Part shown: positions 17,681-41,841 of the stretch, one piece after another
How positions within the stretch are numbered: the first letter of the stretch is position 1
Layout of the letters: each line of letters opens with the position of its first letter
NCBI GenBank assembly: GCA_030427445.1
Contig: JAUIBQ010000006.1
Coordinates: 1-53,699, forward strand
Source: a bacterium
Lineage (GTDB): Bacteria; Patescibacteriota; Saccharimonadia; Saccharimonadales; SZUA-47
DNA: 53,699 bases
Direction: 5' to 3'
Notes under the pieces: generated by a model
What the model was told of the DNA's origin: nothing
What the model saw: only the letters and a program-made list of their open reading frames with translations
Databases searched by the model: none
Translations under genes and position numbers: made by a program

Positions 17681-18709
17681 ATGCTAGATAAAAAAATTGA
17701 AGAAGCGCGTGTAGCTATTCGCGCACAGTTAGATACGACAGATAATCCAAGAGAAATTTTGAAGTCTCCAGCTATTAAAGATCTCTACGCTCAGTTGAGC
17801 GAGTTGCCTAACGAGGAAAAAGCTGAAGCCGGCAAAAGAATTAATGATTTTAAAAACGAAGTGATTTCGTGGGTGCATGAAGCTACATCATCAGAGTCCG
17901 AAAGTTCAGTAGAATCGATTGATATCACTGCTCCTTGGTCAGCAAATGTGCCTGGTGACCAGACCGCAAACCCTCTTCCACCAAGCCAGGGAAGCACTCA
18001 CCCATTACACCAGGAAATAGAGCATATCTGCGATATTTATCGGCGAATGGGGTTTGTAGTTGAAGAGTCACGCGAAATAGATGATGACTACCATATGTTT
18101 ACGAGTCTCAACTTCCCTGAAGACCATCCTGCACGGGACGATTATGACACGTTTATGACGGATGAGGGTCTAGTAGCTCCTGCGCACACTAGCACAATGC
18201 AGAACCGAGTTCTCAAAAAATTTGCAGCGAACCTCGAGAATAACGAGCCAATTGCTGTAATAGTGCCGGATAGAGTATTTCGCAACGAAGATCTCGATGC
18301 AACACACGAGCATACGTTTTATCAAGTTGAAGGCGTATTTGTTGGCAAGGACGTGACAGTAGGTAACTTAATCGCAACGTTGTCGGCTTTTATGACTGAG
18401 TATTTTGGCGAGGAATTGAAAACAAAACTGCAACCTTTTTATTTCCCATTTACTGAACCAAGCTTCGAGTTTGCTATTGAGAGACCTGAGATTCTGAAGA
18501 AAGATGACTCAGAAGAACAAAAATGGCTGGAGTTGCTTGGGTGCGGCATGATTCACCCGAACGTATTACGCGAAGCAGGCATAGACCCAGAAGTGTATAG
18601 CGGGTTTGCTTGGGGTAATGGGATCGAGCGAATGGTAATGATGAAACACGGCATCGAAGATGTTCGTCACTTTGAATCAGCTAACTTACAGTTTTTGAGG
18701 CAATTTTAA
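17681..18709 (+). CDS. pheS: phenylalanyl-tRNA synthetase alpha subunit
   Basis: 342 residues. An N-terminal helical tRNA-binding segment (1-80) and a linker precede the class II catalytic core: HPLHQEIEHICDIYRRMGF, PAHTSTMQNR, the motif-2 region RVFRNEDLDATHEHTFYQVE, and motif 3 WGNGIERMVMMKHGI near the C-terminus. PheS2T2 charges tRNA-Phe in the cytoplasm. An in-frame GTG at 17672 is an alternative start; ATG 17681 fits the family start. The stop (18707-18709) is one base from the ATG of the leader ORF that runs into pheT. Confidence 0.95.
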   Translation: MLDKKIEEARVAIRAQLDTTDNPREILKSPAIKDLYAQLSELPNEEKAEAGKRINDFKNEVISWVHEATSSESESSVESIDITAPWSANVPGDQTANPLPPSQGSTHPLHQEIEHICDIYRRMGFVVEESREIDDDYHMFTSLNFPEDHPARDDYDTFMTDEGLVAPAHTSTMQNRVLKKFAANLENNEPIAVIVPDRVFRNEDLDATHEHTFYQVEGVFVGKDVTVGNLIATLSAFMTEYFGEELKTKLQPFYFPFTEPSFEFAIERPEILKKDDSEEQKWLELLGCGMIHPNVLREAGIDPEVYSGFAWGNGIERMVMMKHGIEDVRHFESANLQFLRQF

Positions 18710-18710
18710 G

Positions 18711-18806
18711 ATGAATCCCGTAACTCCTCATTCTATGTATGTTGAGACACTTTATATAAGAATGTCTAATTACTTATGCAGATTTTATTTAGGAGTAACG
18801 GGATGA
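18711..18806 (+). CDS. 31-codon leader/relay ORF between pheS and pheT
   Basis: ATG one base after the pheS stop. It encodes 31 residues starting MNPVT and ending GVTG, and its TGA (18804-18806) overlaps the pheT start as ATGA. Codons 2-6 form the left arm of a long hairpin whose right arm holds the pheT ribosome binding site. Ribosomes leaving pheS could reinitiate here, open the hairpin and hand over to pheT. The peptide is not Phe-rich (one Phe, four Tyr), so classical attenuation is unlikely. The same MNPVT start occurs in the leader ORF at 41737-41835. Existence as a translated ORF is inference. Confidence 0.5.
   Translation: MNPVTPHSMYVETLYIRMSNYLCRFYLGVTG
18715..18804 (+). promoter_or_regulatory. 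RBS-sequestering hairpin in front of pheT
   Basis: Left arm 18715-18728 (ATCCCGTAACTCCT) pairs with right arm 18791-18804 (AGGAGTAACGGGAT) at 13 of 14 positions (one A-A mismatch). The right arm contains the AGGAG ribosome binding site and the first two bases of the pheT ATG. The loop is 62 bases and holds a TATATA element and a small AGACA/TGTCT hairpin. Confidence 0.7.
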
Positions 18807-21388
18807 AGATAAGTTTAAAAAGTATAAAATCACTCAACTATATATATGAAACAGGGTTTGATCCGTATGATTATACTCCTGAAGAGATTGTTGAGAAAAT
18901 AGGATTACAACTTGGCAATGTTGAGTCAGTTGAAGACAGGCGTGGTTGGTACCAAGATGCAGTTGCAGTAAAAGTCATAGAATGCGTTAAGCACCCGAAC
19001 GCAGATAAATTGTCACTATGTAAAATCGATGACGGTGGCGCAAACCAAAATGTACAACGCGATGAGAGTGGACTTGTTCAAGTAGTATGTGGTGCACCAA
19101 ATGTGAGTCAAGGAATGTTCACAGTATGGCTGCCGCCACAATCGATTGTGCCATCGTCTCGCACTGATGAGCAGCCGTTTGAGCTCGATGCGCGAGAACT
19201 ACGTGGAGAGATGAGCAATGGAATGCTTGCGAGTCCTAAAGAACTCGCACTATCTGATGAGCACGTAGGTATTATAGTTCTTGAAGATGATGGTCGTTAT
19301 CAAGACATGCAACCAGGTACACCACTCACAAAATTGCTTAATGTCGATGATGTAATAATTGAGTTAGAGAATAAGATGTTTACTCATCGACCTGATTGTT
19401 TTGGTGAACTTGGCGTGGCTCGTGAGTTAAGTGGGATTTTTGGCCAACAATTTACATCTCCTGACTGGTATAAAACAGCGACTATCGACAATCGAGCGCT
19501 TGCGACGAAAAATGAGACTCTTTTACCAATCGATACAGTTAACAATGTGCAAGAAAAAGTGCCACGATTCATGCTTCAATCTATTGCAAATGTTGAGTTT
19601 GGAAAAAGCTCCTATCAGACGCAACTAAACCTTGCTAAAGTCGATATAAAGCCTATCAATGAAATTGTCGACTGGACAAACTATTTCATGCATATGACGG
19701 GTCAGCCATTGCATGCGTACGATTATGACAAAGTAGTGTCTTTAAGTTCTGGTGAGCGTGCTGTAGTTACTACTCGCATGGCAGAAGAAGGCGAAACACT
19801 CAAGCTTCTAAACGGTAAAGAAATTGAGCTCTCGGCAGATGACATCGTCATAGCAACAGATACGAAAGTTATAGGACTTGCTGGGGTTATGGGTGGTAGC
19901 GAAACCGAAGTTGATGAAAATACGAAAAACATCATTATTGAATGTGGAACTTTTGATATGTATGCGATTCGCCGAACAAGTATGCGACATGGGCTTTTCA
20001 CAGAAGCTGTGACGCGGTTCAATAAAGGTCAAAGCCCACTACAAAATGATAGAGTATTATCCAAAATTACAGATTGGTTATGGGGCTTTGCAAAAGGTAC
20101 ACTAGCTAGCCCGATGTACGATAGTACAAATTTTGATCTGCAAGCTGATAATCTTAACCACGTAATTGTTAAACTAAACTTCATAAACTCTCGACTCGGC
20201 ACAGTTTTAGAATTTGCTGAAGTTAAGAAACTACTTGAATCTGTAGAGTTCATCGTTTCATATCACCACGATGGCAGTCCTGAAGACGATCCGACAATGA
20301 TAGTGACAGCGCCGTTTTGGCGAATGGACATATCAATCGCTGAAGACATTGTCGAAGAAGTTGGTCGGCTGCATGGGTATCAAAATATCCCTGTATCTCT
20401 ACCAAAACGAGTTATGAAGCCCGCTCCATACAATCCTATTCGCAAGTATAAAAATGATATTAGGACTGTCTTGTCGAAACAGGGTGCTAATGAGGTATTG
20501 ACCTATAGTTTCGTGCATGGAAAACTACTTGAAAACGTCGGCATTGATCCAGAAGAATATTCGTACCATCTTCGAAATGCTTTAAGCCCTGAGTTGCAGT
20601 TCTACCGTCCTAGTTTACTACCTAGTCTATTGGCTAAAATTACCCCAAATATACGAGCGTACGAAGGACAGTCAAACAATGATTTCGCTCTATTTGAATT
20701 GGGCAAGGCTCATGTGAAAGGGCATCAAGATGAGACCGAAAAAGCGGTTCCTGCAGAATATCAGCGATTATCTTATGTGCGTGCAGCTGACCAAAAATCG
20801 TCTAAAAACTTTAAGAATGCGGCGTACTACGAGGTTAAATCTGTAATTGATGTATTAACAGATGGCAAAGCAGCGTATCTTGAACTAGACACAAACAAGC
20901 ATCCAATCACTGCTCCATTCCAGATCGGTAGATCGGCGATTGTCGAAGTCGACGGTGTCGTACTGGGTGTTGTGGGAGAATTTAGATCAGAAGTATCAAA
21001 AACTCTTAAACTTCCTACATGTTGTGCCGGATTCGAGCTAGATGTAGAGCTTCTTATGAAACACAGGAAAAGCCCAGTGTACAGAAAGCTTTCGTCATTC
21101 CCGTCAACATTCCAAGACATAACATTTGAAGTCGGATCAGATATTTCATGGAGCGCTCTGTACGCCATACTACGTGCTGAATTTGAGGTGGTAGATGCGG
21201 AAGATAATCTACTGTATGACATCACTCCTGGTGAGATATTTGTTCCTGAAGATTCAGATAAAAAACGAATAACATTTCACATCGAGCTTGCAAGCTACGA
21301 AAAGACACTTCAATCATCCGATGTTAATACCATACTAGAAACTATCTCTAAGGTTGCTCATGAGCGTCTTGAAGCAGTTCGCATATAG
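18803..21388 (+). CDS. pheT: phenylalanyl-tRNA synthetase beta subunit
   Basis: 861 residues. The N-terminal MKISLKSIKSL segment is followed by the EMAP/OB-type tRNA-binding domain (about 45-195, with VKVIECVKHPNADKLSLCKI), the B3/B4 editing region, and the B5 domain. The inactive class II-like core comes next, and the C-terminal FDX-ACB anticodon-binding domain closes the protein (about 770-861, with KLSSFPSTFQDITFEV). Length is a little above the usual 790-800 residues. ATG 18803 is chosen because AGGAG lies 7 bases upstream; an in-frame ATG at 18776 is less likely. The 3' end overlaps the DUF2207 gene by 29 bases. Confidence 0.95.
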   Translation: MKISLKSIKSLNYIYETGFDPYDYTPEEIVEKIGLQLGNVESVEDRRGWYQDAVAVKVIECVKHPNADKLSLCKIDDGGANQNVQRDESGLVQVVCGAPNVSQGMFTVWLPPQSIVPSSRTDEQPFELDARELRGEMSNGMLASPKELALSDEHVGIIVLEDDGRYQDMQPGTPLTKLLNVDDVIIELENKMFTHRPDCFGELGVARELSGIFGQQFTSPDWYKTATIDNRALATKNETLLPIDTVNNVQEKVPRFMLQSIANVEFGKSSYQTQLNLAKVDIKPINEIVDWTNYFMHMTGQPLHAYDYDKVVSLSSGERAVVTTRMAEEGETLKLLNGKEIELSADDIVIATDTKVIGLAGVMGGSETEVDENTKNIIIECGTFDMYAIRRTSMRHGLFTEAVTRFNKGQSPLQNDRVLSKITDWLWGFAKGTLASPMYDSTNFDLQADNLNHVIVKLNFINSRLGTVLEFAEVKKLLESVEFIVSYHHDGSPEDDPTMIVTAPFWRMDISIAEDIVEEVGRLHGYQNIPVSLPKRVMKPAPYNPIRKYKNDIRTVLSKQGANEVLTYSFVHGKLLENVGIDPEEYSYHLRNALSPELQFYRPSLLPSLLAKITPNIRAYEGQSNNDFALFELGKAHVKGHQDETEKAVPAEYQRLSYVRAADQKSSKNFKNAAYYEVKSVIDVLTDGKAAYLELDTNKHPITAPFQIGRSAIVEVDGVVLGVVGEFRSEVSKTLKLPTCCAGFELDVELLMKHRKSPVYRKLSSFPSTFQDITFEVGSDISWSALYAILRAEFEVVDAEDNLLYDITPGEIFVPEDSDKKRITFHIELASYEKTLQSSDVNTILETISKVAHERLEAVRI

Positions 21389-41701: not shown

Positions 41702-41740
41702 ATGAATAGTAAAACAAAACGAAAAATGGGTGAGTTGTGA
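41702..41740 (+). CDS. possible 12-codon upstream ORF
   Basis: ATG 41702, 12 codons, TGA at 41738-41740 overlapping the GTG start of the next leader ORF (GTGA). The -10 box is only four bases upstream of the ATG, so this ORF may not be fully transcribed. Confidence 0.25.
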   Translation: MNSKTKRKMGEL

Positions 41741-41835
41741 ATCCCGTTACAATAAAAAGAGAGCATATGACAAACTCAAATATAGTGATAAATATTACCA
41801 GTACAACACAAATAGTAAAAAGCGAGGTTTTGTAA
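41737..41835 (+). CDS. 32-codon leader/relay ORF ahead of SLOG gene
   Basis: GTG 41737 encodes 32 residues beginning (M)NPVT, then a Thr/Asn/Ile-rich tail, with TAA at 41833-41835, four bases before ATG 41840. The same first five residues begin the leader ORF between pheS and pheT (18711-18806). Codons 2-6 form the left arm of the hairpin that hides the downstream start codon. Translation is inferred, not shown. Confidence 0.45.
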   Translation: MNPVTIKREHMTNSNIVINITSTTQIVKSEVL

Positions 41836-41841
41836 CGGGAT
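41741..41841 (+). promoter_or_regulatory. start-codon-sequestering hairpin before SLOG gene
   Basis: ATCCCGTTACAA (41741-41752) is the exact reverse complement of TTGTAACGGGAT (41830-41841), whose last two bases are the A and T of the start codon. 12-bp perfect stem, 77-base loop. Same core arms as the pheT hairpin. Confidence 0.7.

Follow-up and report, generated by a model that had tools for sequence, protein, structure and literature searches.

A palindromic, probably mobile element at the start codon of pheT belongs to a family dispersed at start codons in Patescibacteria

Comparative analysis of the pheS-pheT junction in a 53,699-nucleotide stretch of Saccharibacteria DNA (the window) indicated that the feature preceding pheT is very probably one member of a family of short, palindromic mobile DNAs whose insertion is specific to start codons. 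Mobility is read here from sequence comparison, and no transposition was observed. The first-pass annotation had interpreted the same feature as a relay ORF joined to a hairpin that hides the pheT ribosome binding site. The anatomy it described, namely a 31-codon ORF, a TGA/ATG overlap and a 13/14 pairing that covers AGGAG, is present in the sequence in full and comprises the following features:

17681..18709, + strand: pheS, assigned by tblastn to relatives; its TAA is at 18707-18709
18711..18806, + strand: leader ORF of 31 codons, peptide MNPVTPHSMYVETLYIRMSNYLCRFYLGVTG; its TGA (18804-18806) overlaps the pheT ATG (18803-18805)
18712..18715, + strand: left target-site duplication TGAA, within the putative original pheT start ATGAA (18711-18715)
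18716..18803, + strand: putative mobile element of 88 bp, TCCCGTAA...TAACGGGA, with termini and layout as in 126 copies, sitting at the pheT start codon
18716..18728, + strand: left terminal inverted repeat TCCCGTAACTCCT, one mismatch (family consensus TCCCGTTA), pairing with the right repeat
18791..18803, + strand: right terminal inverted repeat AGGAGTAACGGGA, which holds the Shine-Dalgarno-like AGGAG and the A of the putatively rebuilt pheT ATG
18804..18807, + strand: right target-site duplication TGAA, within the present pheT start
18803..21388, + strand: pheT, 861 aa, read from the putatively rebuilt ATG (18803-18805)

A single G separates the pheS TAA from the leader ATG at 18711. Codons 2-6 of the leader (ATCCCGTAACTCCT, 18715-18728) pair at 13 of 14 positions with AGGAGTAACGGGAT (18791-18804), which includes AGGAG together with the first two bases of the pheT ATG. 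The element reaches -25.6 kcal/mol (z = -4.2) when folded by itself, whereas in a longer context z is only -1.4. Inverted repeats of this quality (13/14, with a loop of 30-110 nt) occur three times in the window versus 0-4 times in shuffled windows; by itself, the repeat is not beyond chance for a window of this size. It is taken to be beyond chance because of the family to which it belongs, the direct repeat GATGAA that borders it (18710-18715 and 18802-18807) and its position. Two of the three such repeats in the window are copies of the start-codon family. The 31-aa ORF carries no domain and a single Phe codon, and an Rfam search of the junction gave no match, so the junction resembles neither a Phe leader-peptide attenuator, as had already been noted, nor a T-box. 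An internal TATATA had also been suggested to act as a promoter; this is unsupported, since a promoter scan found no promoter-like site on the + strand within the element.

Deletion in silico of the element and one copy of the direct repeat yields ...TTGAGGCAATTTTAA-G-ATGAAGATAAG, that is, pheS-TAA-G-ATGAAG-pheT. The two genes are adjacent or overlapping at 31 of 77 distinct junctions in the order, two of which (L017 and L023) read TTTTTGAGGCAATTTTAA/ATGAA, the pheT ATG coming straight after TTTTTGAGGCAATTTTAA. Because the deletion restores this layout seen in relatives, the leader ATG is most simply read as the original start of pheT, and the present pheT ATG as one rebuilt at the right end of the insertion. 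The GAGG in the last pheS codons (TTGAGGCAATTTTAA) probably served the original start, and an element-free pheT of the same species would be expected to start at TTTTAAGATGAAG. This empty site is a reconstruction from junctions of other genera. Of the 77 pheS-pheT junctions only that of the window has the element; it was not found at the other 76 examined. In this Saccharibacteria family, pheS and pheT are often split by 0.7-4.2 kb of inserted genes (L038-L046 and others), among them alpha/beta hydrolase, short-chain dehydrogenase-like and HIT-like genes, and the junction is possibly a hot spot for gene gain. One of these alpha/beta-hydrolase genes (in G007) begins one base past pheS, as the 31-aa ORF does; the ORF was considered as a remnant of it, and this was rejected because the sequences are dissimilar by eye.

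BLAST with a 108-bp junction segment revealed paired arm matches in three other genomes (G003, G082 and G094), and the right ends in the G003 copies were identical; in the window's own genome one arm was matched, beside a second copy. The order was then scanned with the pattern TCCCGTTA N40-100 TAACGGGA, which demanded no ATG, and 20 of 393 genomes were positive with 1-22 copies each, while the reversed pattern, used as a control, hit only a few genomes, once each. A phylum-wide sample of Patescibacteria, scanned with a pattern that, unlike the order-level one, demanded an ATG, was positive in 22 of 380 genomes. Exact-end patterns overlook decayed copies, and the counts are therefore lower bounds; the genomes are mostly metagenome-type assemblies. 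The 126 copies that were read share the ends TCCCGTTA and TAACGGGA, come from Saccharibacteria and other Patescibacteria, the ultra-small CPR bacteria, and are mostly 56-116 bp long. They lie at unrelated genes, including ychF, msrA, trigger factor, rplU, an rfbA-like gene and a phage portal-like gene. The window's own genome holds five copies or more; the window has two of these, the second being:

41742..41840, + strand: second copy, 99 bp, with old start GTG at 41737, a new ATG and duplication TGAA
41840-42496, + strand: 218-aa LOG-family-like gene, with the second copy at its start

Four shorter hits on viral contigs (L322, L323, L324 and L325) also look like genuine members of the family; in L322 and L325, at the starts of phage structural-like genes, the TGAA duplication is intact, and by these sequences the family would also enter phages. 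Other viral-contig matches, with a spacing of 261-286 bp, were judged to be chance, as their arms are complementary at 9/13 positions and they enclose no GIY-YIG gene.

In 58 of 72 order-level copies the two 4-bp flanks are identical and read TGNN (TGAA 32, TGAG 11, TGGA 11, TGGG 2, TGTA 1, TGCG 1), whereas 10,000 shuffles gave 21.8 on average and never more than 35. TGNN takes in the second and third bases of a start codon and the two bases that follow. In 69 of the 72, an A or G stands before the left TGNN and completes the old start codon, and the terminal A of the element forms an ATG with the right TGNN even if the old start was GTG. An ORF of at least 60 aa begins at this right-end ATG in 120/126 copies (0 in the opposite orientation), and one of at least 100 aa lies to the right in 65/72 order-level copies. 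The start-codon position is not a search artefact, because the order-level pattern asked for no ATG and would equally have picked up intact copies at other positions. Intact intergenic copies are almost absent, and for this reason we favor an enzyme that targets start codons over the purging of insertions made elsewhere.

Filled and empty sites could be compared directly at two genes. The filled ychF site in G348 reads ...TACCTCTGTTAGTATATATGT/ATGAG/TCCCGTTA...TAACGGG/ATGAGTTTATCC, and the empty site in G322, which shares its genus, reads ...CACCTCTGTTAGTATATATGT/ATGACTTTATC. At msrA, a 75-bp copy is found in G046, and the gene is uninterrupted in G098 and G094. Ahead of an rfbA-like gene, G322 also carries two stacked elements, where the second occupies the start codon that the first rebuilt. 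At odds with the general pattern, a divergent subfamily in other classes (L286-L293 and L202-L205; G463, G476, G432, G450 and G415) shows no target duplication; its left flank is nCYTG, often a few bases past a TATAAT box, and the old start has seemingly been replaced. Among the ychF upstream regions (L236-L250), several genomes of genus g85 have a TATAAT-like box a few bases before the ATG, suggesting leaderless transcripts of ychF in these genomes. Genes with such a box next to the ATG, g85 ychF being one example, are also open to invasion by the element.

Longer copies of approximately 274-277 bp, and one of 381 bp, have the same ends and position as the short ones and lie at the starts of ychF, rplU and other genes (L218, L220, L227, L230, L222, L217 and L221). 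In G003, G357, G348 and G706 the old start opens a complete GIY-YIG ORF of 93-94 aa, and the 381-bp copy too encloses a GIY-YIG gene. These ORFs start with M[NS]PV and end with a TGA that overlaps the new ATG; the one in G003 matches PF01541 at 9.5e-17, and the catalytic Y, R, H and E are invariant in five GIY-YIG ORFs from longer copies. As the ORF opens at the old start, the nuclease is written in the start-codon frame of the host gene. The parent-like copies of about 274 bp, which enclose no known transposase, may represent the autonomous form, in which the nuclease would be translated from the host gene's start codon and would take part in mobilization, while short copies, including that at pheT, would be non-autonomous derivatives moved in trans. 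We put forward, tentatively and with somewhat less than even confidence, a new class of transposable element: an autonomous unit of about 274 bp whose sole gene is a GIY-YIG nuclease that uses the start codon and ribosome binding site of the invaded gene, and which would target start codons with a 4-bp duplication, rebuild the ATG and mobilize derivatives of about 60-116 bp. The 31-aa ORF at pheT was considered as a directly shortened GIY-YIG ORF, with which it has the ends MNPVTP...LGVTG in common, but it has no domain and descent is not claimed.

The copies could instead be MITEs of an ordinary transposase (DDE, HUH or other) with the GIY-YIG gene as a passenger, in which case they would be mobile too and only the enzyme would differ. 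We regard this as a serious possibility, albeit one that we doubt. Products of transposases typically have inverted ends and a duplication of fixed length, and we know of no GIY-YIG nuclease that produces a 4-bp target duplication. Small GIY-YIG genes in these genomes are mostly outside the repeats, and the only GIY-YIG gene in the window's genome assembly is a long, uvrC-like one. Copies in that genome are therefore non-autonomous, and their mobilization there needs a helper that has been lost or missed. However, no transposase gene was seen between the element ends, and GIY-YIG copies with the same ends and duplication occur in genera of different families or classes. Homing into an allelic intron or intein site does not describe the pattern either, as the copies lie at non-homologous genes and 4 bp are duplicated.

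The frame of the old start is open through 57 of 66 short order-level copies, where 11.6 would be expected after shuffling; the other two forward frames are open in 13 and 1 of the 66. The leader mostly terminates at a TAA within TAACGGGATG or at a TGA that shares bases with the new ATG, and is fused in frame with the target gene in only 3/72 copies. The inner 5 bp next to the 8-bp ends differ between copies and are complementary within each copy: Watson-Crick pairing at arm positions 9, 11 and 12 is seen in 58-68 of 72 copies (shuffle maxima 37-54), and positions 10 and 13 are likewise above every shuffle. Approximately half of the right arms have a match of at least five bases to the Shine-Dalgarno consensus. 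Because the old-start frame is open in so many copies at unrelated genes, translation of the leader with hand-over to the rebuilt start is plausible as a property of the whole family. Insertion would then be nearly harmless by design, since the ATG is rebuilt and the target gene would remain expressed: ribosomes from the old start would translate the leader, melt the stem that covers the Shine-Dalgarno sequence of the right arm, and reinitiate a few bases away at the rebuilt ATG. At pheT, ribosomes would enter the leader through the GAGG near the pheS end together with the old ATG, and pheT through AGGAG with ATGA.

Open leader frames, arm complementarity retained despite varied sequence and the frequent Shine-Dalgarno-like motifs would also be expected of a dispersed host cassette that regulates or enhances translation and has spread by duplication or recombination, without transposition of its own. 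We consider this unlikely, as insertion is indicated by the clean empty sites and by a 4-bp flank duplication that varies between copies, the stacked copies in G322 point the same way, and there is no obvious pathway common to the target genes. A dedicated relay that ties pheT to pheS and balances the two subunits, as first annotated, is less probable still. Its form holds up, in that the anatomy is as claimed and the leader frame is generally open across the family, but a purpose-built pheS-pheT device is contradicted by the 76 other junctions without the element and by like structures at the start codons of unrelated genes, where target duplications and empty sites accompany them. Subunit balancing has no support and is not needed to explain the feature. 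The arm covariation proposed as a check is found across copies at different genes; at pheT itself the arms are present in one genome only. A chance inverted repeat beside a chance short ORF, although about two 13/14 inverted repeats are expected per such window, can be dismissed on all of the family evidence (BLAST, pattern scans, flanks and 126 copies).

The nearest known kinds of element are the Rickettsia palindromic elements (RPE) and MITEs. RPE are approximately 100-150 bp long and lie within reading frames, to which they are fused in frame (Ogata et al. 2000; PMC10969869, PMC2229807), and their target duplication is listed as unknown (PMC2229807). They resemble the present family as dispersed palindromes in a reduced genome that have an ORF of their own and are tolerated within coding units; in contrast, the present copies are not inserted in frame inside reading frames but lie exactly at start codons, duplicate TGNN and rebuild the ATG, and their leader mostly ends before the gene. 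MITEs and other small elements with terminal inverted repeats (Correia/NEMIS, ERIC, RUP) are short, duplicate their target and lack a transposase of their own (PMC2229807, PMC10969869). The short copies described here share these characteristics, with terminal inverted repeats, many dispersed copies, a TGNN duplication, empty sites at ychF and msrA, and no transposase; they differ in their start-codon target, their conserved open leader and their inner arms, which vary yet remain complementary, and their larger relatives encode a GIY-YIG nuclease rather than a transposase. A text search of PMC10969869 and PMC2229807 found no mention of "start codon". Homing-endonuclease insertions in CPR rRNA genes are intron-like and mainly LAGLIDADG, Saccharibacteria excepted (PMC11270868); they likewise have CPR hosts and a nuclease ORF inside the inserted DNA, whereas the present family lies at the starts of protein genes with a target duplication. 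No description of the element family was found in the open-licence papers searched, and within that literature it is apparently undescribed.

ATGA overlaps and hairpins that hide ribosome binding sites are familiar from translational coupling and leader-peptide control. The present copies are similar in that the leader stop overlaps or adjoins the gene start and the Shine-Dalgarno sequence lies within the stem, but here the arrangement would be made by a mobile insertion and is not tied to one operon or amino acid. An integron attC site was also considered and rejected, since its boxes match loosely and stand in what we take to be reversed order.

If this interpretation is correct, there is a class of insertion that lands on start codons and would be near-silent in very gene-dense genomes. 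It would account for the spurious "MNPVR..." leaders and extended N termini that appear in annotations of CPR genomes, and the autonomous units would be among the smallest candidates for autonomous mobile DNA. It would also mean that mobile DNA can create leader ORFs and ATGA couplings at one stroke.
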